Positions 1,109-23,497 of a DNA stretch of 26,855 nucleotides are shown one piece after another. The DNA lies in IMG/VR virus record IMGVR_UViG_3300044825_001410, positions 1-26,855 of that record; one strand, 5' to 3'. Every line of letters starts with the position of its first letter. The stretch's first letter is position 1. Source of the DNA: a virus. The notes under the pieces were generated by a model. The model was not told the origin of the DNA, searched no databases, and saw nothing but the letters and a program-made list of their open reading frames with translations. The position numbers were made by a program, and so were the translations under genes.

Positions 1109-2842
1109 ATGCGCGACTACATCGCCCTGGCCGAGCAGTACGTCGACGACGTGCTCAGCGGCCGCCGGCCGGCCTGCAAGTGGGAGCGCCTGGCCTGCCA
1201 GCGCCACCGCAAGGACCTGGAGCGCCAGGGCACCGACGCCTTCCCGTACGCCTTCAACCCCGAGCTGGTCGACGCCAAGGGCAAGGCCTACCGCCCGGCG
1301 CTGCGCGTGTGCGCCTTCGCCGAGCTGCAGCCGCACATCAAGGGCGACTGGGCCGCGCGCGGCGAGCGCATCCACCTACAGGGCTGGCAGGCCTTCATCC
1401 TGGCCAGCATCTTCGGCTGGGTGCACCAGCACACGCAAAAGCGCCGCTTCCGCGTGGCCGACCTGTACGTGCCGCGCAAGAACGCGAAGAGCACGCTGGC
1501 CGCGGTGATCGGCCTGTACATGCTGGCGGCCGACGGCGAGCACGGCGCCGAGGTCTACAGCGGCGCCACGAGCCGCGACCAGGCGCTCGAGGTGTTCCGC
1601 CCCGCGCGCCTGATGGCCAACGGCGACGTGGGCGCCGCGTATCGGGCGCACTACGGCGTGCTGGTCAACGTCACCAGCCTGGTGGTGCTGGACACGAACA
1701 GCAAATTCGAGCCGGTGATCGGCAACCCGGGCGACGGCGCCAGCCCGAGCTGCGCACTGGTCGACGAGTACCACGAGCACACCAGCAGCGAGCTCTACGA
1801 CACCATGCGCACCGGCATGGGCGCGCGCCGCCAGCCGCTGCTGCTGATGATCACCACCGCCGGCAGCAACATCGGCGGGCCGTGCTACCAGCACCAGGTC
1901 GAGCTGCAGAAGATGCTGGAAGGCGTGCAGGTCGACGAGACCCGCTTCGGCATCGTCTACGGCATCGACGCCGGGGACGACTGGACGCAGCCCGAGGCGT
2001 TGATCAAGGCCAACCCCAACTTCGGCGTGTCGGTGTTCGAAGACTTCCTGCTGACCGCCCAGCTCGAGGCCGTGCGCGACCCGCGCAAGGCGGCCGTGTT
2101 CAAGACCAAGCACCTGAACGTATGGGTGGCTGCGGCGTCGCCCTGGCTGAACCTGGAGAACCTGCAGCGCTGCGCCGACCCGGCGCTCAACGCCGAGGAC
2201 TTCCGCGGCGAGACCTGCTGGACCGGCACCGACCTGGCCAGCAAGAACGACATCGCGAGCAAGGCCAAGGTGTTTCGCCGCCTGATCGACAACGACTGGC
2301 ACTACTACGCCTTCACCCGCAACTGGCTGCCGCAGGCCGCCGTGCAGAAGCCGGAGAACGGCCACTACCAGGCCTGGGTCGAGCAGGGCCACCTGGTGCA
2401 GACGTCTGGAAACATGATCGACCTGCGCCAGATCCAGGAGGACATCGAGGCCGACAGCGAGCTGCACGTGGTGGCCGAGGTGGCAATGGACGCCTGGGGC
2501 AGTCGCGAGATCTCGCCGGCGCTGCAGGCCGGCGGCTTCGAGGTGGTCGACGTGCCGATGACCACCAAGAACCTCAGCGAGCCCATGAAGCTGATCGCCG
2601 CGCTGGTGGATGCGGGGCGCTTCCACTTCGACGGCAACCTGGCCACCGTCTGGATGCTGGCCAACGTGGAGGTGTTCGAGGACCGCAACGAGAACGTGTT
2701 CCCGCGCAAGAGCAAGGCCGAGAACAAGATCGACGCCGCGATCGCCATCATCCTGGCGGTGGGGCGCGCGATGCAGGAAACGCCCGACCCGATGGCCTCG
2801 TTCATGGCCTACGTCGAATCGTCGCAAGGCCAGCCCGCATGA
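1109..2842 (+). CDS. terL: Phage terminase large subunit (ATPase/nuclease)
   Basis: This is the motor that pumps DNA into the prohead and cuts the concatemer. The 577-residue protein has the expected two-domain order. The N-terminal ATPase has a Walker A-like loop PRKNAKST at about residues 122-129 and a Walker B stretch ALVDE at about 216-220, then a coupling-like segment LLLMITTAGSN. The C-terminal RNase H-like nuclease begins near WTGTDLASKND, with Asp375 a likely metal ligand. The family is Terminase_1 (YmfN-like). The start at 1109 is chosen because upstream in-frame residues are arginine-rich shadow of the preceding gene and do not resemble the family. The stop overlaps the portal ATG as ATGA. 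Confidence 0.96.
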   Translation: MRDYIALAEQYVDDVLSGRRPACKWERLACQRHRKDLERQGTDAFPYAFNPELVDAKGKAYRPALRVCAFAELQPHIKGDWAARGERIHLQGWQAFILASIFGWVHQHTQKRRFRVADLYVPRKNAKSTLAAVIGLYMLAADGEHGAEVYSGATSRDQALEVFRPARLMANGDVGAAYRAHYGVLVNVTSLVVLDTNSKFEPVIGNPGDGASPSCALVDEYHEHTSSELYDTMRTGMGARRQPLLLMITTAGSNIGGPCYQHQVELQKMLEGVQVDETRFGIVYGIDAGDDWTQPEALIKANPNFGVSVFEDFLLTAQLEAVRDPRKAAVFKTKHLNVWVAAASPWLNLENLQRCADPALNAEDFRGETCWTGTDLASKNDIASKAKVFRRLIDNDWHYYAFTRNWLPQAAVQKPENGHYQAWVEQGHLVQTSGNMIDLRQIQEDIEADSELHVVAEVAMDAWGSREISPALQAGGFEVVDVPMTTKNLSEPMKLIAALVDAGRFHFDGNLATVWMLANVEVFEDRNENVFPRKSKAENKIDAAIAIILAVGRAMQETPDPMASFMAYVESSQGQPA

Positions 2843-4137
2843 ACCTGCTCGACCGCATCCGCAACTTCGTGTACCGCCGCCAGCCCGGCGACCCGCGTAT
2901 CTACGTCGCGCCGCGGCAGGCCGGCGTGCTGGTCACCGAGGACACCGCGCTGACCTTCGGCGCCGTCTGGGCGGCCGTGTCGCTGATCAGCCGCACGGTG
3001 GCCGCGCTGCCGTGGCACGTGTACGAGCGCACCGGCGAGGGCCGGCGCCCGGTCGAGGGCAGCGTGGCCTGGCTGCTGAACAACCGGCCCAACACCGAGA
3101 TGTCGGCCTTCGCCTTCCGCGAGTCGCTGGTGCTGCACGCCTTAACCTGGGGCAACGGCTATGCCGAGATCGTGCGCGACGCCGCGCAGCGCCCGGCCGC
3201 GCTGTGGTTGCTGGCGCCTGACCGCACCCGCCCGAAGCGCACCGACGCGGGCGAGCTGGTCTACGAGGTGACGCTGGACGACGGCACCACGGTGATCCTG
3301 CCCCCCGAGCGCGTTCTGCATGTGCACGGCATGGGCTTCGACGGCCTGGTGGGCTACTCGCCGATCGCCATGGCCGCGCGCTCCATCGGCGTCGGCATGG
3401 CGCAGGACGTTTTCGGCCAGGCCTTCTACGCCAACGGCACCACCTTCGGCGCGCTGATTGAGATGCCCAGCGGCCTGAACGCCGACCAGATCAAGACGCT
3501 GGAGGCGCACTACAACGACCGCAGCCGCGGGCCCGACAAGGCGTTCCGGGTGCAGGTCGGCAGCGCCGGCACCAAGGTGCACCAGATGGCCATGCCGCTG
3601 ACCGACGCGCAGTTCCTGGAGTCGCGCAAGTTCAGCGTCACCGAGGTGGCGCGCTGGTACGGTGTGCCGCCGCACAAGATCGCCGACCTGGACCGCGCCA
3701 CCAACAACAACATCGAGCACCAGGGCATCGAGTTCGTAACCGACGCCATCGTGCCGTGGGCCATCCGGCTGGAGCAGGAGGCCAATGCCAAGCTGTTCAG
3801 CGCTCGGGCTCAGGGCCGGGTCTACACCAAGCTGAACGTCAGCAGCCTGATGCGCGGCGACAGCAAGAGCCGCGCCGAGTACTACCGCGCCATGTTGCAG
3901 GCCGGCGTGATGACCATCAACGAGGTGCGCGCGCTCGAGGAGCTGAACGGCATCGGCCCGAATGGCGACGAGCAGCTGGTGCAGCTCAACCAGACCACGC
4001 TGGAGCGCATCATCAACCCGCCCGAGCCCGTGGCTACGCCTGCGCCCGAGCCCGCGCCGCAGCCCGAGCCGGCGCCCAACAACGTCATCCGGCAGGAGGC
4101 CCTGGCCTTCCTGCGTGCGCAAAGGAACAACCAATGA
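2839..4137 (+). CDS. Phage portal protein (HK97 family)
   Basis: This encodes the dodecameric portal ring at the capsid vertex through which DNA enters and leaves and to which the tail is attached. The 432-residue protein has the HK97-portal signature YGVPPHKIADLDRATNNN at about residues 274-291, followed by IEHQGIEFVTDAIVPW, and the N-terminal block TFGAVWAAVSLISRTVAALP. The length is normal. The C-terminus ends in a proline/glutamate-rich segment built on PEPA units, a probably disordered tail that could contact the protease or internal proteins. It starts inside the terL stop and its own stop overlaps the protease ATG, so terL, portal and protease are translationally coupled. Confidence 0.96.
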   Translation: MNLLDRIRNFVYRRQPGDPRIYVAPRQAGVLVTEDTALTFGAVWAAVSLISRTVAALPWHVYERTGEGRRPVEGSVAWLLNNRPNTEMSAFAFRESLVLHALTWGNGYAEIVRDAAQRPAALWLLAPDRTRPKRTDAGELVYEVTLDDGTTVILPPERVLHVHGMGFDGLVGYSPIAMAARSIGVGMAQDVFGQAFYANGTTFGALIEMPSGLNADQIKTLEAHYNDRSRGPDKAFRVQVGSAGTKVHQMAMPLTDAQFLESRKFSVTEVARWYGVPPHKIADLDRATNNNIEHQGIEFVTDAIVPWAIRLEQEANAKLFSARAQGRVYTKLNVSSLMRGDSKSRAEYYRAMLQAGVMTINEVRALEELNGIGPNGDEQLVQLNQTTLERIINPPEPVATPAPEPAPQPEPAPNNVIRQEALAFLRAQRNNQ

Positions 4138-4823
4138 CCATCCGCTTCATCCAGGCCAAGGGCAACGCCGCGGCCGAGATCTGGCTGTACGAGCAGGTCG
4201 GCGAGTCCTTCTGGGGCGACGGCATCAGCGCCAAGACCTTCCAGAAGGAACTGACCGCGCTCGGCAAGCCCAACACCATCAACCTGCACATCAACAGCCC
4301 CGGCGGCGACGTGTTCGACGGGTTCACCATCTACAACCTGCTGGCGCAGCACCCGGCGCGAGTGGTGGTCGACATCGACGGCCTGGCCGCCAGCATCGCG
4401 TCGATCATCGCGATGGCCGGCGACGAGATCCGCATCGCCAGCAACGCCATGATGATGATCCACAACCCGCACGCGATGGCCATGGGAGACGTGCGCGAGA
4501 TGCACCGCGTGGCCGGCCTGCTGCAGCAGATCAAGGGCAGCCTGGTCGACACCTACGCCGCGCGCACCAACCAGCCCGCCGACAAGCTGGAGGCCTGGAT
4601 GGATGAGGAGACCTGGCTGACCGCCGACACCGCGGTGCAGCAGGGCTTCGCCGACCTGGTGGCGGCCGAGCAGCGCGTAACCGCCTGCTTCAGCCTGCTG
4701 AAGGACTACCGCAACGTGCCGGCGCGACTGCGCCAGCAGCCCGTCGACAACACCACGCCGCAGCGCGACATCGCCGCGGTGCGCATCGCACAACAAGCCG
4801 AGCGCCTTCGTGCGCAACGCTGA
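4134..4823 (+). CDS. ClpP-like prohead maturation protease
   Basis: This serine protease of the ClpP/crotonase fold probably acts inside the prohead to remove the capsid scaffold domain. In the 229-residue product the ClpP-type block INLHINSPGGDVFDG is followed by GLAASIAS with the likely nucleophile Ser87, then MMIHNPH with the likely base His110. The Ser-His spacing is close to that of bacterial ClpP. The acidic residue of the triad should lie in MDEETWLTA near residue 160. The C-terminal 40 residues are charged and alanine-rich. ClpP-type prohead proteases commonly sit between portal and capsid, as here. The stop is followed by 67 non-coding bases carrying a terminator-like hairpin. Confidence 0.95.
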   Translation: MTIRFIQAKGNAAAEIWLYEQVGESFWGDGISAKTFQKELTALGKPNTINLHINSPGGDVFDGFTIYNLLAQHPARVVVDIDGLAASIASIIAMAGDEIRIASNAMMMIHNPHAMAMGDVREMHRVAGLLQQIKGSLVDTYAARTNQPADKLEAWMDEETWLTADTAVQQGFADLVAAEQRVTACFSLLKDYRNVPARLRQQPVDNTTPQRDIAAVRIAQQAERLRAQR

Positions 4824-4890: not shown

Positions 4891-6348
4891 ATGCAATCGA
4901 TCCGCAGGGAGCGCGCGGCGCTCGCAATGGCTGCGCTCGCCTCTTTGGCGGGTTCGGCGATCTTCCTCAATGATGCAAACACCATCGACTCGCTGCGCGC
5001 GAAGCTGGTGGAGCTGCACGAGGTGTCCAAGGGCATCCAGGCCAGGGCCGACGCCGCCAAGCGCGACCTGAACGCCGAAGAGCAGACCGAGCTGGACGCG
5101 GTGATGGCCGAGTTCGACCAGGTCGAGGCCGACATTCAGCGCCGCGAGCGCATCCAGGCCCAGCAGTCGCGCCTGACGCAGCCCGAGCCGCGCCTGGTGC
5201 CGCCGAGCCAGCCGGCTGCCAGCACGCCCGCCGCGGCCGCGCCGTCGCGCGACGGCCTGCGCAACACTCGGCTGACCACGGTGGAAGAGCGCCAGCGCTG
5301 GGGCTTCCAGAACATGGGCGACTTCGCGGCTTCCGTGCGTCGCGCAGTGCTGAACCCCAGCGCGATCGACCAGCGCCTGGTCCAGAACGCGGCCATCAGC
5401 ACCCCGGGCAGCGAGCTGGCCGGTGCCGACGGTGGCTTCGCGGTGCCGCCCGAGTGGCGCGCCGAGATCCTGGCCATGGTCGACGCCGAGGGCTCGCTGT
5501 TGGGCATGACCGACCAGCAGCGCGTGTCGGGCAACACCATCACATTCCCGACCGACGAGACCACGTCGTACCAGACCACGGGCGGCATCCAGGCCTACTG
5601 GGACAGCGAGCTGGACACCATCACCCAGTCGAAGCCGCAGATCGGCGATTTGACCATGAAGCTCTCGCGCCTGACCGCGCTGGTGCCGATGACCGAAGAG
5701 CTGCTCGAGGACGCGCCGGCCATGGCCAGCTACGTCACCCGCAAGGCCGGCGAGAAGATTGCCTTCAAGGTCAACGACGCCATCGTCAACGGCACGGGCG
5801 TCGGCCAGCCACTGGGCATCCTGAACGCTCCGTGCACGGTGCAGGTGTCGAAGATCAGCAGCCAGGTCGCGGCCACGATCCACGCCAAAAACGTGGTGAA
5901 CATGTGGGCGCGTCTGCCGGCGGCCAGCCAGCGCACGGCCGTGTGGCTGGTCAACCAGGACTGCCTGCCCAGCATCTACCAGCTGGGCTTCGCGGTCACG
6001 GACGGCACCACGACCAACGTCGGCGCCGGCGCGCTGTACATGGGACCCGGCCAGATGGCCAACGGCGCCCCCAGCGGCACGCTGCTGGGCCGCCCGATCG
6101 TCGTCACCGAGGCCTGCCCGACCGTGGGCACCACCGGCGACATCATCCTGGCCGACCTGAGCAAGTACCTGACCGTGGTCAAGGGCGCGCTGAAGTCCGA
6201 CGTGTCGATCCACCTGTGGTTCGATCAAAACGTGACGGCCTTCCGGTTCGTCATGCGGATGAACGGCCAGCCGTGGCTGAAGTCGGCCATCGCGCGCAAG
6301 TCTGGCAGCAACACGCTGTCGCACTTCATCCGCCTCGAGGCGCGCTGA
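4891..6348 (+). CDS. Major capsid protein (HK97 fold)
   Basis: This encodes the main shell subunit. The 485-residue protein has an N-terminal scaffold (delta) region, predicted as coiled coil at about residues 30-90 (LRAKLVELHEVSKGIQARAD and on), then a proline/alanine/glutamine linker to about 130. The HK97-fold body starts around residues 145-180, where STPGSELAGADGGFAVP is a typical entry. It contains LVPMTEELLEDAP and ends VTAFRFVMRMNGQP. It is longer than HK97 gp5 mainly because of the scaffold part, which the upstream protease probably removes. ATG 4891 has GGAG eight bases upstream. Residues 8-27 are unexpectedly hydrophobic for a scaffold domain. Confidence 0.95.
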   Translation: MQSIRRERAALAMAALASLAGSAIFLNDANTIDSLRAKLVELHEVSKGIQARADAAKRDLNAEEQTELDAVMAEFDQVEADIQRRERIQAQQSRLTQPEPRLVPPSQPAASTPAAAAPSRDGLRNTRLTTVEERQRWGFQNMGDFAASVRRAVLNPSAIDQRLVQNAAISTPGSELAGADGGFAVPPEWRAEILAMVDAEGSLLGMTDQQRVSGNTITFPTDETTSYQTTGGIQAYWDSELDTITQSKPQIGDLTMKLSRLTALVPMTEELLEDAPAMASYVTRKAGEKIAFKVNDAIVNGTGVGQPLGILNAPCTVQVSKISSQVAATIHAKNVVNMWARLPAASQRTAVWLVNQDCLPSIYQLGFAVTDGTTTNVGAGALYMGPGQMANGAPSGTLLGRPIVVTEACPTVGTTGDIILADLSKYLTVVKGALKSDVSIHLWFDQNVTAFRFVMRMNGQPWLKSAIARKSGSNTLSHFIRLEAR

Positions 6349-6359
6349 TCCATCGAGCC

Positions 6360-6381
6360 GCGCGGGCTTGACGGCCCGCGC
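6360..6381 (+). other. Intergenic GC-rich hairpin after the capsid gene
   Basis: GCGCGGGC (6360-6367) pairs perfectly with GCCCGCGC (6374-6381) around the loop TTGACG. No T-run follows, so it is not a canonical intrinsic terminator. It lies in the 59-base gap between the capsid stop and the decoration gene, 14 bases before that gene's GGAG. An mRNA-stabilising or processing role is possible. Confidence 0.6.
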
Positions 6382-6407
6382 CTCACCATCCATCTGGAGT
6401 ACCTGAC

Positions 6408-6908
6408 ATGGCTATCTCTCTGAACGCTCGCCTGGACGAGCAGACCACCACTGTCATGGCGGCCATCGGCCTGCTGATGACGTCCACCCTCGGCGACACG
6501 ACGTACGTGTCGATGAAGGGCTACCGCAAGCTGCAGATCGTGATCGGCATCGCCGACGGCACCACCGTCACCGGCTCGACCGTCACGCTGAAGCAAGCCA
6601 CGGCCATCGCCGGCACCGGCGAGAAGGCCCTGGCCTTCACCCGCATGCTGGCCAACACTGACTACGCGGCCAGCAAGACGATGGTCGAGACTGCGGTCAC
6701 GTCCAACACCTTCACCACCCAGACGACCAACAGCAAGGACTCGCTGTACATCATCGAGGTGGACGCCGACGACCTGGACGTGGCCAACGGCTTCGACTGC
6801 GTGCGCGTGGACATGACCGGCCACGCGGCGACCTCGTCGCGCGGCGCGTTCGTGCTCTACAACCTGTTCGGCGCCCGCTACAGCGGCGTGAACCCGCTGG
6901 TCGACTGA
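6408..6908 (+). CDS. Probable capsid decoration / head-stabilising protein
   Basis: A 166-residue protein immediately after the capsid gene, the usual place for a decoration or head-stabilising protein. A strong GGAG (6396-6399) eight bases upstream suggests high expression. The sequence is rich in Thr, Ser, Gly and Ala with alternating hydrophobic residues (KLQIVIGIADG, LYIIEVDADDLD, GFDCVRVDMTGHA), consistent with a beta-sandwich virion protein. It has no membrane segment, signal peptide or catalytic motif. GC-rich hairpins lie on both sides of the gene. The function rests on position and composition; a generic structural protein of the head surface is the cautious reading. Confidence 0.7.
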   Translation: MAISLNARLDEQTTTVMAAIGLLMTSTLGDTTYVSMKGYRKLQIVIGIADGTTVTGSTVTLKQATAIAGTGEKALAFTRMLANTDYAASKTMVETAVTSNTFTTQTTNSKDSLYIIEVDADDLDVANGFDCVRVDMTGHAATSSRGAFVLYNLFGARYSGVNPLVD

Positions 6909-6914
6909 TGACGC

Positions 6915-6939
6915 CAGGCCGGGCCCGGAGCCCGGCCTG
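6915..6939 (+). other. Intergenic 10-bp hairpin after the decoration gene
   Basis: CAGGCCGGGC (6915-6924) pairs perfectly with GCCCGGCCTG (6930-6939) around the five-base loop CCGGA. It fills most of the 47-base gap before the next gene, whose GGAG lies at 6945-6948. No T-run follows, so a barrier to exonuclease or an RNA-processing site is likelier than termination. Confidence 0.6.
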
Positions 6940-6955
6940 AGCGCGGAGCATCTGC

Positions 6956-8152
6956 ATGCCTCACATCGTCATCGTCAACCCCTGCCAGGCTGAGACTGGC
7001 GGGGGGCAGTGGCGCGCCGGCGGGACGTACCCCGCCAGCGACAGCTACGCCAAGGCGCTGATCGGACGCGGTGACGCCTACGATCCGGCCGGCGGCATCG
7101 AGGACATCGGCAACACCGGCCTGGTCGGCGACGGCCTGGCGCCTGGGTCCTACGGCGACATCATCGCTGTCGGCAACCCGACCACCGGGCTGAACATCAG
7201 CTCGTCGGTGTTGAGCGCAGCCGCGCGCACGGTCGCCGACGACGCGACGGTGGCCGACATGGTCAACACGCTGGGCGGCGCCAGCAGCACCGGCACAGGC
7301 GGCCTGGTGCGGGCCACATCGCCCACGCTGGTGACGCCGATCCTGGGCACGCCGCAGTCGGTCACGCTGACCAACGGCACCGGCCTGCCCGTTACCACCG
7401 GCCTGAGCGGGATGGGCAGCAACGTCGCCGCCTTCCTGGCCACTCCATCAAGCGCGAACCTGCGCGCGGCGCTGACCGACGAGACCGGCACCGGCGCTGC
7501 CGTGTTCGCTAACTCGCCTACCCTGGTTACTCCCGCACTCGGCACGCCGTCGAGCGGGGTGCTGACCAACTGCACCGGCCTGCCGGTTGCGTCAGTCGTC
7601 GGGCTGACCACGGTGGCCACCGACACCATCTTCAACGCGTCCGGCGACCTGGTGGTCGGCACCGGCAGCGACACCGCGGCACGCCTGGCGATCGGCGCCA
7701 ATGGCAACGTGCTGCGCAGCAATGGCACCACGGCGGCCTGGGCCGCGCTGGCTGCCTCGGACATCGCCATCTCCGATGCCGGGGGCTACTTCCCGGGCAG
7801 CGGTTCAGTCGAGGCCGCCCTGCAGGTGCTGGGCGCGACCATGGGCGCCGACATCAAGGTGCACTACCTGAACGGCGCCACCGCGGCGGCCGGCGAGATC
7901 GTCTGGCTGGGTGCCAGCGTTGCCCTGGACTTCGTGCTGGATTCGTTCCCGAGCGCGGCATGGGTAGAGCTTTGGGACAACACCACCAACGCCGCCCCGG
8001 CGCTGCTGGCCAGGACGACCAACGGCACCGGCAGCACCCTGACCAACTACGTCATCACGGTCGGCGCGGCCCCGTTCTACGGCGTCGCCAGCACTGCCAT
8101 CCTGCTGGTCGTCAGCGGCACGGTCACCGGCCGCCTTCACTTCAGAGCCTGA
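6956..8152 (+). CDS. Fibre-like virion structural protein with phage-fibre repeats
   Basis: A 398-residue glycine/threonine/alanine-rich protein. The centre contains two copies of SPTLVTPxLGTPxS followed by LTNxTGLPV, 65 residues apart, joined by FLATPSSANLRAALTDETG. This motif set recurs in many phage tail-fibre and virion proteins, and I recognise it as a fibre shaft signature. A coiled or strand-forming block follows (LAIGANGNVLRSNGTTAAWAALA), and the C-terminal 100 residues look like a compact beta domain. GGAG at 6945-6948 gives a clear start at 6956. Its place between head genes, far from the tail-fibre locus, suggests a head-attached fibre or capsid decoration. It is probably paired with the beta-helix protein that starts four bases after its stop. 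Confidence 0.65.
   Translation: MPHIVIVNPCQAETGGGQWRAGGTYPASDSYAKALIGRGDAYDPAGGIEDIGNTGLVGDGLAPGSYGDIIAVGNPTTGLNISSSVLSAAARTVADDATVADMVNTLGGASSTGTGGLVRATSPTLVTPILGTPQSVTLTNGTGLPVTTGLSGMGSNVAAFLATPSSANLRAALTDETGTGAAVFANSPTLVTPALGTPSSGVLTNCTGLPVASVVGLTTVATDTIFNASGDLVVGTGSDTAARLAIGANGNVLRSNGTTAAWAALAASDIAISDAGGYFPGSGSVEAALQVLGATMGADIKVHYLNGATAAAGEIVWLGASVALDFVLDSFPSAAWVELWDNTTNAAPALLARTTNGTGSTLTNYVITVGAAPFYGVASTAILLVVSGTVTGRLHFRA
7319..7588 (+). repeat. Two-copy 25-residue fibre repeat, 195-bp period
   Basis: The segments encoded at 7319-7393 and 7514-7588 share the pattern SPTLVTPxLGTP, LTN, TGLPV. The DNA copies have diverged at many synonymous sites, so this is an old protein-level repeat rather than a recent duplication. 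Confidence 0.7.
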
Positions 8153-8155
8153 GCG

Positions 8156-9937
8156 ATGCCCTACTACGTTGCCGGAAAGGCCACCTGGGGCGGGTCGTGG
8201 GCCGCAACGCCTTCGCAGGCGCTCAACGCATCCACTCCGGCCACGGCCAAGCAGATGGCCGCCTGGATGAGTTCGGGCAGCCTTACCGATCCGTCGCGGC
8301 ACATCCAGTTCAATGGGCTGTACCCGCTGACCCTGGCCGACGCTGCTGACTGGTCGGCGGCCAGCATGCCGGCCGACACTGCGGTGCTGGACACCACCGG
8401 CACGGTCAATGCTCCCACCACGGGCGCGTGGGGCCGCAATATCCTGTTCGGCGACGACAGCGACAACACATCGGGCAGCGCAACCACAGCGGCCGACGGC
8501 TTCACGTTTGAAGCGGTGGGCCAGAACGGCGCAGGCTACAACATTGACATGCGCGGCGGCACCACCGGGTCAGACCGCCAGATGGCCGCGCTGTTCATCC
8601 AGGGCTATGACTTCACGGTCACTGGGTTCAGGATTCGCTGCGCTGACCGCAACCCCTATCTGACGGGCGGCGTGGCGGCGCAGCTGGGCTCTGGCCAGTA
8701 CACCGACTACAGCCTGGACAACGGCGGGCTGAAGGTGCGCGGCGGATGGGGCTGCCGGGTCACCAACAACTACGTGCACGGCGGCGATCTGTCGTCGCAC
8801 GGCATGTGCGTCGAGTTCCGCACCCACGGCAGCACGTTCACCTACAACCAGAACAAGATGCTGGAGGTTGACAACAACACCGTCACCTCGTGCGGCTCGG
8901 AAGGGATCATCGTCAAGCCCGGGGCAGGCATGGACGGCACCGTGCGTAAGCTGCCCTATGGCGCCATCGTGCTGGTGCATCACAACACGTGTTCAGACGC
9001 GCACTGGGGCACCGGCGGCATCGAGGCTGCCAAGTACCACAGCAACTTGCTCAGTGTGTACGGCAACGCCATCAACGGCAGCGCCATCCTGGTCTACAGC
9101 AACACCCTGTACGGCAACTGCGAGGATGCCATCGCGTCGCTGGGCGCGAACATCGACATCTTCAGCAACACCATTCTGTACACCTGCCTGGGTGACACCT
9201 GGGGCGGCACGGTCACAGGTTTCTACGGCATCGAGAGCGGGGCGCCCGGCCACTCCACGCTGGCGGGCTACGCCTCGGGCTGGGACATCCGCACGCACGG
9301 CACGCAGGGCCAGGGCATCAAGACCGGCCTCGGCGACGGCGACTGGGGCACGGCCGGCACGGGCTGGCTGGTGCGCGGCACCGACGCGGCCAACTACGCG
9401 CTGGACGAGCAGCGCAGCAAGGTGTACCGCAACATCATCATGGATACCTCGGGCGACGGCGCCATCACGATGAACGCGGCCAGCGGCACGCTGGCATGGG
9501 CCAACGAGATCGTCACCACGCGCGGCACGGGCATCACCGGCGGGGCCGCCAGATCCCAGAACGGCAACATGCACGTCAGCCACAACTACGTGGAGGCCAT
9601 TCGCGCGCTGGACCTGCGCAACTACTACACCGTCTGGGCCTTCAACAACATTTTCGTTGGGTCGAGCTACGCGGCATACAAGTCGGGCGCCAATTGCTTC
9701 GTCTACGGTTCCACCAACCTGCTCAGCGGAGCCAAGTTCGGCACCTTCGACTGGCAGGACGAGCGCAGCGGCACGCCGGCCTACACGGTGGGCGTCGGCC
9801 CCACGGCTGGCGGCAACTGCGACGCGCAGGGGTTGTGGGGTGCCGTCATGCACGCCCGGTGCACTGCCGCGCTGCGCGACATCAATAACCGCCGCTGGGG
9901 CGCAAACCGCCTGCCGCTTGGACCGAGGCAGCCGTGA
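8156..9937 (+). CDS. Right-handed parallel beta-helix protein (pectate-lyase-like fold)
   Basis: A 593-residue protein whose middle (about residues 200-500) is a run of beta-helix rungs with the asparagine ladder of this fold: VTNNYVHGG, VDNNTVTSCGSEGI, VHHNTCSD, VYSNTLYGN, IFSNTILYT, VYRNIIMD, VSHNYVEAI and AFNNIFVG. The N-terminal 180 residues (VAGKATWGGSWAATPSQ and on) may form a capping or attachment domain. Such folds in phages usually bind or cut surface polysaccharide; no catalytic residues can be assigned by eye. The gene starts four bases after the fibre-like gene stop and overlaps the connector gene by one base, so it belongs to the head operon. That is an unusual place for a tailspike-like protein. 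Confidence 0.75.
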   Translation: MPYYVAGKATWGGSWAATPSQALNASTPATAKQMAAWMSSGSLTDPSRHIQFNGLYPLTLADAADWSAASMPADTAVLDTTGTVNAPTTGAWGRNILFGDDSDNTSGSATTAADGFTFEAVGQNGAGYNIDMRGGTTGSDRQMAALFIQGYDFTVTGFRIRCADRNPYLTGGVAAQLGSGQYTDYSLDNGGLKVRGGWGCRVTNNYVHGGDLSSHGMCVEFRTHGSTFTYNQNKMLEVDNNTVTSCGSEGIIVKPGAGMDGTVRKLPYGAIVLVHHNTCSDAHWGTGGIEAAKYHSNLLSVYGNAINGSAILVYSNTLYGNCEDAIASLGANIDIFSNTILYTCLGDTWGGTVTGFYGIESGAPGHSTLAGYASGWDIRTHGTQGQGIKTGLGDGDWGTAGTGWLVRGTDAANYALDEQRSKVYRNIIMDTSGDGAITMNAASGTLAWANEIVTTRGTGITGGAARSQNGNMHVSHNYVEAIRALDLRNYYTVWAFNNIFVGSSYAAYKSGANCFVYGSTNLLSGAKFGTFDWQDERSGTPAYTVGVGPTAGGNCDAQGLWGAVMHARCTAALRDINNRRWGANRLPLGPRQP

Positions 9938-18528: not shown

Positions 18529-20349
18529 ATGACCGACGTAGTCAACGTAGGCACCAGCGCGAACAGCGGCACCGGCGATACCCTGCGCGCCGCATTCCAG
18601 GCCATCAACACGAAATTCGACCTGCTGGACGCGCAGGCTGCATACAACGCCAGCCTGTACACCAACCGCGGCAACTGGTTGACGGCAACGGTCTATGCGC
18701 TGAACGACTTGGCGGTGCAGTCCAGCATCGTCTACGTGGCCACCACGCCGCACACCAGCGGCACATTCGCCACGGACTTGGCCGCAGGTAAGTGGGCCGT
18801 CCACCAGGGCATTACCGCAGCCGAACTGATGGACGACACCGGCGCTGGCCTGGTGGGCTTCGACGCGGGCGCTGGGTACAGCAACGGCACGGTCGGCTCG
18901 CGGCTGGCCGGGGTGTTTGCGACCGACTCTTATGCGACCTTTGCCGATGCGATCACCGCCGCAGACAACGCCACGCTGCGCATCAACAGCGCGATTGTCG
19001 TCGCGGCCAACACGAGCATCCCGGCCACGGTCGACGTCGAGGTGGTGCGGCCCGGTGCCATCTCGGTCAACAGCGGCGTCACGCTGACGATCAACGGCGC
19101 ATTCAAAGCCGGCCAGCGGCAGATCTTCAGCGGGTCGGGCTCGGTGGTATTCGGCAACGGGTCGCGCGCCATCAGCCCGCGGATCTGGTTTGGCACCTCG
19201 GGGGCTGTGTACGACACGCGCCGCACCGTGCTGCAAACCGACGGCGACACCACCGGCCCGGTGCACGCCTACGAGGACAACAACACGCTGGCGATGACGC
19301 ACACCAGCGCGGCCAACTACAACGCCTACGCATCCTTCGACGCCAACCCAGCCATCACCGGCGCGGGCGCTTACGACCACCACGTCAGTTTTCAGGCGCG
19401 GCCCACCTACTCGGGCAGTAACTCGATCTGGTCGCGCTGGGACGGCTTCAACTTCCTAGGCACGCACTCAGGCAGCGGCACCGTGGCTGCAATGCGCGGG
19501 GTGCACATCCAGGACCCGCTCGGCAGCGGCGTCATCACCGCCCTGTATGGCATCTTCGTGCAGAAGCTGACCCGCGGCGCCGAGTCGTGGGGCATCTACT
19601 GCGCCACGCCGGCCAACACCATCAGCGTGGGCGGTGGCGAGGCGGCCTCCTGGTTGCTGCGTGGCAACGGACAGACCGGCGGCTATGGCCTGTCTCTGCA
19701 GTCGCGCACCGACAGCTCGGCGCACGTGCTGCAGGTCGCCAATTCTTGGCTCGGCTTCGGCACGAACAACGCTTACCAGGGATACATCACCGCGGCGGGG
19801 CTGTGGAAGATCAGCACCAGCATCGCCGACGTGCTGTCGAGCAATCAGAAGCTCGAGGTCGAGGGCACCGGGGCGGCCACGTTCAAGGCCACCGGCGGCG
19901 CCACGGTCGGCGCGGTGCTGAACTGGCATGCGGCGACCACCGGGAACAACCTGTTTGAGGCGTTCTACACAGAGGGCACGGCCACGCTGCGCGGGTCGAT
20001 CGACTTCAACCGCGGCAGCCTGGTGACCCGCTACAACACGACGTCGGACGCCGCGCTCAAGACGGTGCTAGGCGACGCCCCGCCGGAGGCCTCCACTGCC
20101 ATCCTGGCCTCCACCCGGATGCGTGAGTACACATGGAAGGCCGACCCGACACAAAAGCCGCAGATCGGCGTGATCGCGCAGGAGCTGCACCAGACCTTCC
20201 CTGGTGCGGTGTCGGTCGGCGACAAGAAGCGCCCCTGGGCGGTGGACAAGACTGCCTTCACTTTCCACCTGATCGCCGGCTGGCAGCAGCATCAGCGAGA
20301 GATCGCCGAGCTGCGCGCCGAGATCGATGCGCTCAAGAGGCGCGGGTAA
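18529..20349 (+). CDS. Tail fibre with intramolecular S74 chaperone domain
   Basis: A 606-residue trimeric-fibre candidate. The N-terminus VNVGTSANSGTGDTLRAAFQ is a known virion-attachment motif of fibre and baseplate proteins. Residues about 130-220 resemble the beta-helix entry domain of tailspikes (TINGAFKAGQRQIFSGSGSV). A long Ser/Gly/Thr-rich beta region follows. The C-terminus is a Peptidase_S74/endosialidase-type chaperone with the dyad TTSDAALK (Ser506, Lys511), then YTWKADPTQKPQIGVIAQEL and a final coiled coil REIAELRAEIDALKRR. This domain trimerises the fibre and then cleaves itself off before Ser506. AAGGA at 18518-18522 supports the start. Confidence 0.9.
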   Translation: MTDVVNVGTSANSGTGDTLRAAFQAINTKFDLLDAQAAYNASLYTNRGNWLTATVYALNDLAVQSSIVYVATTPHTSGTFATDLAAGKWAVHQGITAAELMDDTGAGLVGFDAGAGYSNGTVGSRLAGVFATDSYATFADAITAADNATLRINSAIVVAANTSIPATVDVEVVRPGAISVNSGVTLTINGAFKAGQRQIFSGSGSVVFGNGSRAISPRIWFGTSGAVYDTRRTVLQTDGDTTGPVHAYEDNNTLAMTHTSAANYNAYASFDANPAITGAGAYDHHVSFQARPTYSGSNSIWSRWDGFNFLGTHSGSGTVAAMRGVHIQDPLGSGVITALYGIFVQKLTRGAESWGIYCATPANTISVGGGEAASWLLRGNGQTGGYGLSLQSRTDSSAHVLQVANSWLGFGTNNAYQGYITAAGLWKISTSIADVLSSNQKLEVEGTGAATFKATGGATVGAVLNWHAATTGNNLFEAFYTEGTATLRGSIDFNRGSLVTRYNTTSDAALKTVLGDAPPEASTAILASTRMREYTWKADPTQKPQIGVIAQELHQTFPGAVSVGDKKRPWAVDKTAFTFHLIAGWQQHQREIAELRAEIDALKRRG

Positions 20350-20392: not shown

Positions 20393-20857
20393 ATGGCAGC
20401 AGGAACATTCACCCTCTACCGCGCGAATCTCGATGATCTGCGCATTCAGGATCTGGTCGGCGCCACCGTCAAGGTGGCCCTGGTCACGTCCAGCTACACG
20501 CCCAATGCCGCCAACAACGGGCACAGTTTGTGGTCGGATGCCAGCAGCAACGAAATCGCCAACGGCAACGGGTACAACACCGGCGGCGTGACACCGGGAT
20601 CGTTGACGACATCGCTGGTCACCAACGGCCATAACTTCGACTCAGCAGACCCGAGCTGGACAGCCAGCGGCGGAAACATCCCGGCCTGGCGCTATGCCGT
20701 GATGTACGTCAGCGGGTCGCTGTGGGGCAAGACCAACCCGCTGATCGGGTACTTCCTCGGCGACAACACCCCGGCCGATGTCCCGGCAACCACCAGCGGC
20801 AACCCGCTGACCATCACCGTGCCGGCCGCTGGTTGGTTCGACATCACGCAGGCTTGA
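20393..20857 (+). CDS. Conserved phage virion/tail accessory protein
   Basis: A 154-residue protein beginning AAGTFTLYRANLDDLRIQDL and continuing with VKVALVTSSYTPNAANNGHS, NEIANGNGYNTGG and AWRYAVMYVSG. I recognise this pattern as a widespread small phage structural protein without assigned function, usually found beside fibre genes. It is beta-rich with no catalytic motif or membrane segment. AAGGA (20381-20385) seven bases before the ATG supports the start. A 43-base gap from the fibre stop contains only this ribosome binding site. It probably contributes to the tail tip or fibre assembly. Confidence 0.78.
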   Translation: MAAGTFTLYRANLDDLRIQDLVGATVKVALVTSSYTPNAANNGHSLWSDASSNEIANGNGYNTGGVTPGSLTTSLVTNGHNFDSADPSWTASGGNIPAWRYAVMYVSGSLWGKTNPLIGYFLGDNTPADVPATTSGNPLTITVPAAGWFDITQA

Positions 20858-20859
20858 CC

Positions 20860-22113
20860 GTGTTCGCACTGAACGGCCCTAACCCTCGGCGGGGTGTTCC
20901 TGCCGTGGCGCCGCTTGAAACCTTCCAGATTGCCGCTGACGGCATTTGGACATGGTTTACAGACCCGCGCGCCCGTGTGGTGGGGGATCAACTGTTCACG
21001 ATGGCGGTGGACAGTGCCGGAACATGCCGCATTCACGCTACCGACTTGACCGACGCAACGACCTCCTCGTTTTCGCTGTCATCGACAGGGCTGGAGATTG
21101 ACGACCACAACAACGGCAGTATCAACGTGCTGTCCAATGGCAAGCTGCTGGCGTTCTATGGAAAGCACAACGACGACTACTTCCGCTATCGAGTCAGTTC
21201 GTCGGCGGGCGATATCAGTGCGTGGAGCGCGGAGCAGGCGCGAGGCACCGCGCAGGGTCCATACAGCTACCCCAACGCATTTCAATTTGCCAACGCAGGC
21301 ACATCGCGCTGGTTCCTGTTCTACAGGCAGGGCAGCGGTGGAGGGGCGGCGCCGTCGCTGAGCTATCGCACATGCGACGACATCGAGACCTTCCCGGCAA
21401 CCACATGGTCATCGGAGGTGGATGTCTACTTCATGACCGGGTACACGCCTTACTGGAAGCTCGCCCACGATGGCGAAAACCGCTTGCACGTGGTCTGTAC
21501 GAACATTCATCCTGTTCAGGGGCAGTCGAGCATCTATCACTTCTACATCGACTGCGACGGCTCGGGAGTGCTGCACTACTACCAGAGCGACGGCACCGAA
21601 ATCACATCGCCTCCGTTCGTGGCTTCTGAGTTCACGCCGGTCTATGACGGCAGCACTACGAAGGCGTGGATTTCCGACATCACCATCGACAACAACGGGC
21701 ATCCGCGCGTGCTGTGGATGAAGTACCCAGGCAACAATGGGTCGGCCATTGAATACTGGCACGCGCGATGGACAGGATCAGCCTGGACGAATCACAAGAT
21801 CACCGACGACGGCGCGGGACTCTACAGCCCTGAGGTGTACTACCACGGTGGCATGTGCTTCGACTCCACCAACCCCGCTGCGGTGTTCCTGTCTGCGCCC
21901 GTATCCGGCAAGCGGCAGATCCAAGAATGGCGCACTTCTGACAGCGGGGCCACCTGGGCGCAGCATCGGGCCATCACCACGGACAGCGCCAGCGGGCAGC
22001 GCCTGCGGCCGTACTCGCCGCGCGATCACGATGCCCGGCTTTCTGTTATCTGGTTTGAGGGCACCTACACGACCTTCACCAGCTACAGCACCAAAGTTAT
22101 GGGGGCCGGCTAA
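20860..22113 (+). CDS. BNR-repeat beta-propeller protein (putative glycan binding)
   Basis: A 417-residue protein with the repeated aromatic/Asp/Gly strands of a sialidase-like beta-propeller (BNR_4-like). One clear Asp box, SDSGATW, is at about residues 360-366. Weaker blades are visible at NNGSINVLSNGKLLAFYGKH, RWFLFYRQGSGG, PYWKLAHDGENRLHVV, DITIDNNGHPRVLWMKYPG and TNPAAVFLSAPVSGKRQIQE. GTG 20860, two bases after the preceding stop, is the likely start; TTG 20854 is an alternative. Codon use is visibly less GC-rich than in the head genes. It probably binds host glycans, and enzymatic activity is not demonstrated by the residues I can see. It overlaps the next ATG by one base. Confidence 0.75.
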   Translation: MFALNGPNPRRGVPAVAPLETFQIAADGIWTWFTDPRARVVGDQLFTMAVDSAGTCRIHATDLTDATTSSFSLSSTGLEIDDHNNGSINVLSNGKLLAFYGKHNDDYFRYRVSSSAGDISAWSAEQARGTAQGPYSYPNAFQFANAGTSRWFLFYRQGSGGGAAPSLSYRTCDDIETFPATTWSSEVDVYFMTGYTPYWKLAHDGENRLHVVCTNIHPVQGQSSIYHFYIDCDGSGVLHYYQSDGTEITSPPFVASEFTPVYDGSTTKAWISDITIDNNGHPRVLWMKYPGNNGSAIEYWHARWTGSAWTNHKITDDGAGLYSPEVYYHGGMCFDSTNPAAVFLSAPVSGKRQIQEWRTSDSGATWAQHRAITTDSASGQRLRPYSPRDHDARLSVIWFEGTYTTFTSYSTKVMGAG

Positions 22114-22766
22114 TGGCGCAATTTGCATCTGCCACCTTTACTGGCTCCAACGGCACAGAGCTGTCAGCCGCAGACTCCAACTGGTCGAAGTTCAGAACCT
22201 GCGACAACGCGGTGATTCAGAACAACAGGGGCGCGTCATCTTCAAACATCACGCCACCCTCATACAAGCACAGCGGCACGCCAGCATCAGCAGACTATGA
22301 GGTTGCGGCGGATTTCTACATGGTAGATGTGGACACTACGGTTTCCGCTGGCGTTTGCGCCCGAATTGTTGACGGGCAGTTAACGTGCTATTGGGCTCGC
22401 TACAGGCGCGGCACTGGGTGGCAATTGTTCCGCTACAACTCGGGCACGGCGACGCAGCTAGGCAGCACTTATGCAGAAACCATCGGCGCCGGGTCAACGC
22501 GCCGAATCAGGCTGCGCTGCGTCGGCAGCGTTATCAGTGTTTACCGTGACGCTGAGACGAGTCCGATCATTTCCGTGACCGACGGATCGCCGCTTTCGTC
22601 GGCGGGGTACGCCGGCATCTTGACAACCAGCACGACCACGACCGGGCCGCATCTGGACGACTTCAGCGCCGACGACATTGGCGGTGGTGGTGGCGGCTCT
22701 AACGTCCCGCTGAACGTCTTGGTTCCCGCGCAAGGCATCTTCTTAACTTCGGCCTTCGGGCGCTAA
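22113..22766 (+). CDS. Lectin-like (concanavalin/LamG jelly-roll) accessory protein
   Basis: A 217-residue protein with jelly-roll features: FTGSNGTELSAADSNWSKFR at the start, YEVAADFYMVDVDTTVSAG, YWARYRRGTGWQLFRYNSG, TRRIRLRCVGSVISVYRDAE and SAGYAGILTTS followed by HLDDFSADD. This order is typical of LamG/concanavalin-like carbohydrate-binding domains in phage and bacterial surface proteins. A poly-glycine linker then leads to a short hydrophobic end LNVLVPAQGIFLTSAFGR, possibly an attachment tail. Base composition is more AT-rich than in the structural genes, suggesting a recently acquired module. No hydrolase residues are recognised. It is coupled to the beta-propeller gene. Confidence 0.7.
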   Translation: MAQFASATFTGSNGTELSAADSNWSKFRTCDNAVIQNNRGASSSNITPPSYKHSGTPASADYEVAADFYMVDVDTTVSAGVCARIVDGQLTCYWARYRRGTGWQLFRYNSGTATQLGSTYAETIGAGSTRRIRLRCVGSVISVYRDAETSPIISVTDGSPLSSAGYAGILTTSTTTTGPHLDDFSADDIGGGGGGSNVPLNVLVPAQGIFLTSAFGR

Positions 22767-22777
22767 GGAGCACACAC

Positions 22778-23497
22778 ATGGCATCGACTGACGCACTACC
22801 CGTTCCCCGCAAGAACGCGGCCTACCGCGTGACCTTCGGCATTTTCAAGAACGACGGCACGCTGATCACAGGCGCGACCGGGCTGGACTCCGAGGTGTCG
22901 AAGGACGCCGGCACCTTTGCCGACTGCACCAACGAGGCGACCGAGATTGCCACGTCGAGCGGCATCTACTACCTGGACCTGACCAGCACCGAGATGAATG
23001 CCGACACGGTGGCGATTCTGGTGAAGTCAAGTAGCACCGGCGCGGTGCCTGTGGTGCTGTCGCTGTACCCGCAGGAGGCCGGCGATATTCAGGTGAATAC
23101 GACCTACTGGAGCGGCACGGCGGTGGCTTCGCCTGACACTGCCGGCTATCCGAAGGTGACGATCAAGAGCGGCACCGGCACCGGCGAAGTCTCGCTTTCG
23201 TCGGGCCGCGTGGCAGTGCAGGCAGGCATCCGCAAAAACCAAGCGCTGGCGAACTTCCCGTTCCTGATGACCGACAGCACGAACCACAACCCGCTGACCG
23301 GGTTGACGGTCACTGCGACCCGCAGCATCGACGGCGCAGCGTTCGGCAGCGGCACGATTGCCAACATGACCGAGGTTGCAAACGGCATTTACCAGTGCGA
23401 CCTGGGGGCTGGTGACTTGAACGGAGACACCATCGTTCTACGGTTCACCGGCTCGGGTGCTGACGACCTGTTCGTGACCCTCGTCACCGAGCCTTGA
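22778..23497 (+). CDS. Virion-associated protein with a duplicated beta-sandwich
   Basis: A 239-residue protein starting DALPVPRKNAAYRVTFGIFK, preceded by a strong AAGGAG (22765-22770) seven bases upstream. Residues about 19-97 and 160-239 look like two copies of one domain: both have xTGxT near the start, a central GIY (SGIYYLDLTSTEMNADTVAI and NGIYQCDLGAGDLNGDTIVL) and end in a valine strand plus P. A linker (IKSGTGTGEVSLSSGRVAVQ) separates them. Similar Ig-like proteins occur in phage tail and baseplate clusters. No specific function can be named. The stop overlaps the next ATG by one base. Confidence 0.72.
   Translation: MASTDALPVPRKNAAYRVTFGIFKNDGTLITGATGLDSEVSKDAGTFADCTNEATEIATSSGIYYLDLTSTEMNADTVAILVKSSSTGAVPVVLSLYPQEAGDIQVNTTYWSGTAVASPDTAGYPKVTIKSGTGTGEVSLSSGRVAVQAGIRKNQALANFPFLMTDSTNHNPLTGLTVTATRSIDGAAFGSGTIANMTEVANGIYQCDLGAGDLNGDTIVLRFTGSGADDLFVTLVTEP

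Follow-up and report, generated by a model that had tools for sequence, protein, structure and literature searches.

A fibre-like gene and a probable beta-helix gene in the head operon of an uncultured tailed phage: candidate cargo of an exchangeable accessory-spike cassette

The host range of phages is usually read from their tail-fibre genes. What, then, is the role of a fibre-like gene and a probable beta-helix gene that lie among the head genes, far from any tail fibre? We addressed this question in a 26,855-base virus record of an uncultured tailed phage (IMG/VR record IMGVR_UViG_3300044825_001410), referred to here, at its full length, as the window. An earlier note on this DNA had proposed that the two genes encode head-attached fibres or capsid spikes that bind or cut surface polysaccharide. 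The features of the window on which the argument depends are the following:

47-583: TerS
~1109-2842: TerL, assigned from its position and from homologues in relatives
2839-4137: portal
~4134-4823: ClpP-type protease
4891..6348, + strand: major capsid protein, HK97 type (PF05065, E 4.8e-49; phrog_10, E 1.3e-62)
6408..6908, + strand: head gene of 166 aa that forms the slot's constant left border; possible decoration protein (from position; phrog_28483)
6913..6942, + strand: strong RNA hairpin of 30 b with no U tract, between the 166-aa gene and the cassette
6956..8152, + strand: P0001, fibre-like, 398 aa
6956..7105, + strand: N-domain of P0001, candidate virion anchor (from alignment and tblastn)
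8156..9937, + strand: P0002, probable right-handed beta-helix protein, 593 aa
9937..10506, + strand: gp6-like head-tail adaptor, which forms the slot's constant right border (phrog_442, E 2.5e-14; PF05135, E 1.3e-5)
18529-20349: S74 tail fibre
20393..23497, + strand: post-tail-fibre genes (154 aa, BNR propeller, 217 aa, 239 aa)

Both open reading frames lie exactly where the earlier note had placed them, on the same strand and as tightly spaced as it had described: 47 b separate the 166-aa gene from P0001, 3 b separate P0001 from P0002, and the stop codon of P0002 overlaps the start of the adaptor gene (TGATG). Both are intact, and their third-position G+C content (GC3 of 0.90 for P0001 and 0.89 for P0002) compares with 0.83-0.97 in the neighbouring head genes; the pair is phage-like in its codon use and forms part of the operon of head genes. 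The adaptor is followed, in this order, by Hc1, a gp10-like gene (assigned from its position and from homologues in relatives), the tail terminator, the major tail protein, the tape measure, Dit, a J-like tip protein and the S74 tail fibre, which puts the tail-fibre gene 8.6 kb downstream of the pair, in line with the more than 8 kb claimed before. As for the 166-aa gene, its naming as a probable decoration gene is based on its position, and its match is to a function-unknown family (phrog_28483, E 1e-7). The 55-b stretch that follows this gene (6906-6960) folds at -31.2 kcal/mol (z -3.1), and a second GC-rich hairpin is found between the capsid gene and the 166-aa gene (6355-6384, z -1.9), so that the 166-aa gene is flanked by hairpins on both sides.

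P0001 comprises three parts, namely an N-domain (residues ~1-50), a fibre repeat (~110-295) and a C-terminal beta domain (~300-398). The phage-fibre repeats reported earlier were recognised correctly, as residues ~118-213 resemble podophage fibre-like genes with 54-68% identity. In the podophages this repeat is encoded near portal and hub genes, and we therefore rejected it as a marker of tail fibres. The last ~100 residues of P0001 match the end of a protein of the relative L027 (40% over 58 aa), and this homologue, 202 aa in length and 39% identical over the aligned part, lacks the repeat; a short form similar to that of L027 also occurs in L012, and the repeat of P0001 thus reflects an insertion or a loss. 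The predicted structure of P0001 was unreliable.

The N-domain recurs in slot proteins of L027 (75% identity), L012 (~40%), L023 (~37-41%) and, weakly, L020 (22%), and the proteins that carry it are encoded directly 3' of the 166-aa gene in 5/5 cases. What it is joined to differs: the beta domain alone in L012 and L027, the fibre repeat and the beta domain in the window, a deacetylase-like domain in L020 (Pfam E 6e-4, under the cut-off) and a beta-rich part of ~1000 aa in L023. The five slot proteins thus combine a constant N-domain, the candidate anchor, with a variable outer part. The N-domain itself gave no matches in PDB and Pfam and a weak one to phrog_2616 (6992-7084, E 2.5e-4), while its comparison with standalone small genes that follow the 166-aa gene in L050, L053, L058, L043 and L062 (hhalign probability of 72% over 26 columns) is only suggestive of kinship.

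P0002 is probably a right-handed beta-helix protein. It matches the Pfam family Beta_helix with an E value of 0.0014, under the gathering cut-off; its AlphaFold model, built from two input sequences, has a pLDDT of 34 and a beta-helix core at residues 190-345; and Foldseek searches with this low-confidence model returned weak matches (best E 0.019), nearly all of them to beta-helix proteins, including the HK620 tailspike and 5g5o (Atadenovirus LH3). On these weak values the parallel beta-helix of the earlier note is likely, whereas the proposal that the pair cuts polysaccharide found no support, as family searches detected no catalytic family in P0002. PHROG and Pfam searches likewise detected no known tail-attachment domain at its N-terminus, and no relative of P0002 was present in 50,697 phage records or in genome contigs. 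The only clear homologue in the collections searched is that of L027 (32-42% identity), also located just before the adaptor gene, so that the same two-gene order does occur elsewhere beside the same genes. An analogous pair, a small N-domain gene and a beta-helix gene, is found in L012. The homologue in L027 is frameshifted ~80% along its length (L027 ~2540-2640), and over the last 11 residues it is almost the same as P0002.

How unusual is it for this site to be filled? The earlier note had regarded the interval as normally empty or occupied by small genes. Among IMG/VR viral contigs, 92 encode a relative of the 166-aa gene, of which 80 were kept, and in nearly all the gene lies directly 3' of the capsid gene. 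We defined a slot as complete when it was bounded on both sides, which gave 20 slots, including that of the window and counting L025/L026 once. Fifteen of these hold 2.2-7.8 kb, four are empty (L009, L019, L030 and L054; 46-96 b) and one, that of L050, holds a 77-aa gene only, and thus in this phage group the expectation of an empty site does not hold. Slot length ranges from 46 b to 7.8 kb, as compared to a gap of roughly 20-70 b between the capsid gene and the 166-aa gene in the closer relatives. Compact versions of the slot, judged by position, were also seen in two cultured phages, Bradyrhizobium phage ppBdUSDA122-1 and Caulobacter phage Kronos. No description of such a head-module cassette slot was found in the open-access papers searched, which covered limited topics; the cassette slot is a new element that goes beyond the reading of the earlier note.

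The contents of the slot are, judged by their domain matches, strongly biased to surface and carbohydrate folds. A scan of 37 proteins (35 from slot regions and the two of the window) detected Beta_helix in 5, LamG_3 in 4, and Collagen, Polysacc_lyase, Polysacc_deac and a carbohydrate-binding family in 1 each, counts that are not unbiased frequencies because the proteins were picked by eye from the larger ORFs; matches to tail-fibre PHROGs were many. In seven distant relatives (L052, L055, L056, L062, L065, L066 and L067), glycosyltransferase- or methyltransferase-like genes, recognised by eye, lie near the adaptor among head genes, indicating that the site accepts non-structural genes too. 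Such enzyme-like genes, as well as the 4/20 empty slots and the frameshifts in P0002 of L027 and in P0001 of contig L002, would be compatible with moron-type cargo, i.e., non-structural or decaying genes that are tolerated in the late operon and have no role in the virion. We consider this explanation very improbable: both ORFs of the window are intact and native in codon use, the N-domain is conserved, the contents carry the bias described above, and each frameshift comes from one metagenome contig and may be an error of assembly.

Three pairs of relatives combine closely similar flanks with different contents. Between L015 and L016, identity is 99.7% across 1855 b on the left of the slot and 96% across 361 b on its right, while their slot contents are unrelated except for the terminal ~100 b of the last gene. 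L007 and L008 share flanks of 94% and 88% identity around a replaced middle, and L006 and L013, at 88% identity in both flanks (7.9 and 13 kb), have a part of the slot replaced. By these alignments the slot is a hypervariable site of cassette exchange. The window and L027 differ in a graded manner, with identities of 77% for the adaptor, 75% for the N-domain, 61% for the 166-aa gene and 32-42% for P0002; at the sequence level P0002 diverges faster than the flanks of the slot, a pattern that would be expected for surface proteins under diversifying exchange. Together, the empty slots and those with unrelated contents suggest that the swapping of accessory spikes in these phages is not limited to the tail tip but extends to the head or neck.

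Where on the virion might the products of the slot sit? The pair is encoded within the head module, between the capsid-side 166-aa gene and the gp6-like adaptor; homology to a characterised head fibre was not found, and the PDB search gave no match of note. A tblastn comparison of the window's 20393..23497 genes with the head slots showed that three post-tail-fibre genes have relatives in the slots of L013 (35/31/49%), L007 and L008 (81% over 105 aa) or L006 (35%). The 239-aa family, for its part, occupies slot-like positions in L106, L110, L007, L008 and L013, and the tail side in the window and in L136. Since cassette genes are found at both the head slot and the tail-fibre end, genome position alone cannot place a product on the head, and slot-encoded products might sit on the tail. 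P0001 and P0002 would then be tail-associated fibre or spike genes whose place in the head module is incidental, with the slot as a landing site for late-expressed surface genes, a reading in keeping with the shared families and with the many cargo PHROGs named tail fibre. The pair itself behaves otherwise: homologues of the N-domain occur in the head slot only (5/5), and the family searches gave P0002 no known tail-attachment domain. The earlier note had held that homologues lying consistently in tail-fibre loci would speak against it, and none of the N-domain or P0002 homologues was at such a locus, every one found being in a head slot. We therefore regard a tail location of the pair as unlikely.

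A position at the head-tail joint, as whiskers or a collar on the adaptor or portal vertex, has a parallel in the lactococcal neck passage structure (NPS). The pair lies directly 5' of the head-tail adaptor gene, with P0002 overlapping its start, and 936 phages carry, upstream of the major tail gene, accessory neck genes that vary in presence and whose products were located to the neck by immunogold labelling (PMC4759559); the neck fibres of TP901-1 are non-essential (PMC4493119). The slot resembles the 936 NPS locus in holding an optional, variable appendage gene between capsid and tail genes (PMC4759559), and differs from it in lying upstream of the adaptor rather than of the major tail gene. 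No match to NPS or whisker proteins was found in PHROGs, Pfam, PDB sequences or phage records, however, the N-domain is tied to the left border gene no less closely than to the right, and the neck gene of TP901-1 is at the far end of its tail module. A neck appendage of this kind is a somewhat doubtful alternative.

The best reading of these comparisons is that the pair encodes an accessory spike or adhesin that is exchangeable and exposed on the virion, more likely at the head or neck than on the tail. The earlier proposal of head fibres or spikes accordingly survives in part: location in the head module, operon membership and the virion-surface type of the proteins agree with it, and genome position does not fix head versus neck or tail. 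To the reading as a whole, an exchangeable two-part accessory spike at the head or neck, we assign a probability of about 0.5. P0001 and P0002 would be the current cargo of an accessory-spike cassette in the head operon, P0001 most likely serving as base and stalk. Its N-domain would dock on a constant part of the virion that the adjacent head or neck genes encode. The fibre repeat may trimerise into a stalk, and the beta domain at the C-terminus may carry or contact the next protein, presumably P0002, whose beta-helix would form the outer part and bind, possibly cleave, a glycan of the host or the environment. Such a spike could provide a reversible first contact, the tail tip performing irreversible adsorption. 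The cassette would be exchanged whole, by recombination between its two conserved neighbours, the 166-aa gene on the left and the adaptor gene on the right. Against the spike count the unreliable models of both proteins, the relatives of slot cargo at the window's tail-fibre end, the fact that the one clear homologue of P0002 is frameshifted, the frameshifted P0001 of L002 and the enzyme-like genes that distant relatives carry in this region.

Several known systems resemble parts of this arrangement. The head spike of RcGTA consists of a spike base and a head spike fibre (rcc01080) anchored by its N-terminus, and is an accessory structure that binds capsular polysaccharide (PMC10218006). Its base-and-fibre architecture is the one proposed here for the pair; the RcGTA spike genes, in contrast, lie away from the head module, beside capsule genes, and have no sequence match to the pair. 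The turret of HFTV1 is likewise a two-protein head appendage with a polysaccharide-active outer part, composed of a gp30 base and a deacetylase-like gp31 head (PMC12494034), and the slot protein of L020 fuses the N-domain to a deacetylase-like domain. HFTV1 is, however, an archaeal virus with no detectable sequence similarity to the pair, and P0002 is a probable beta-helix rather than a deacetylase. For RcGTA, HFTV1 and the 936 NPS, the last of which also lacks a sequence match, the relation is one of analogy and not of membership by sequence. The beta-helix tailspikes of HK620, P22 and 9NA share the probable fold of P0002, judged by its weak Foldseek matches, whereas P0002 has no recognised tail-attachment domain or identified catalytic site and its gene is outside the tail module. 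In Atadenovirus LH3, a tailspike-like beta-helix serves as a capsid knob (PMC8156859); LH3, which belongs to an animal virus capsid, is among the weak Foldseek matches of P0002 (5g5o) and serves here as an analogy only. The phi29 head fibre gp8.5, T4 Hoc, T5 pb10 and SPP1 gp12 are non-essential capsid-surface proteins that aid attachment (PMC7602432), but they have other folds and are not known as exchange cassettes.

Should spikes that bind or modify glycans be encoded in head-module cassettes as well, and be exchanged among near-identical phages, then a second locus is missing from host-range prediction and from annotation. As a tentative extension of the accessory-spike reading, this would be a second, head- or neck-borne receptor-binding locus in which whole cassettes are swapped on a conserved anchor, with adhesin genes shuttling between the head slot and the tail-fibre end, such that one adhesin family could appear at one end of the virion or the other. 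Such cassettes should be simple to find in other phages, and to clone, by means of the conserved N-domain and the two genes that border the slot.

Some minor observations concern the sequences themselves. A run of six Gs in the window (7001-7006) forms codons 16-17 of P0001; in L002, a contig of metagenome 3300047557 with 99.99% identity to the window, the run counts seven Gs, which frameshifts P0001, and contigs L001 and L002 both break exactly at this run. The extra G is either an assembly error or slippage, and as it is the only difference from the window, L002 was rejected as a variant cassette. The frameshift of L002 and that of P0002 in L027 each stem from a single metagenome contig.

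At many loci, the final slot gene encodes a basic C-terminal tail (+5 to +7 over 30 residues) on a body that is unrelated from one locus to the next (L006, L007, L015, L016, L018, L021, L025, L031 and window 9845-9934). The mean charge of the final 30 residues of last slot genes was +4.0, against +0.45 in controls, a contrast inflated by related loci, and leave-one-out profiles gave E values of 0.9 or worse, so homology of this Arg-rich tail as a common anchor was dropped. At the tail-fibre end, the window encodes a BNR-repeat protein (20722-22113), a sialidase-like propeller (PF15892, BNR_4, E 2.6e-24). Finally, a relative of the 166-aa gene with 89% identity is present in L093 (1736-2233), a contig binned as part of an uncultured Pelomonas MAG, which provides a weak hint at the host.
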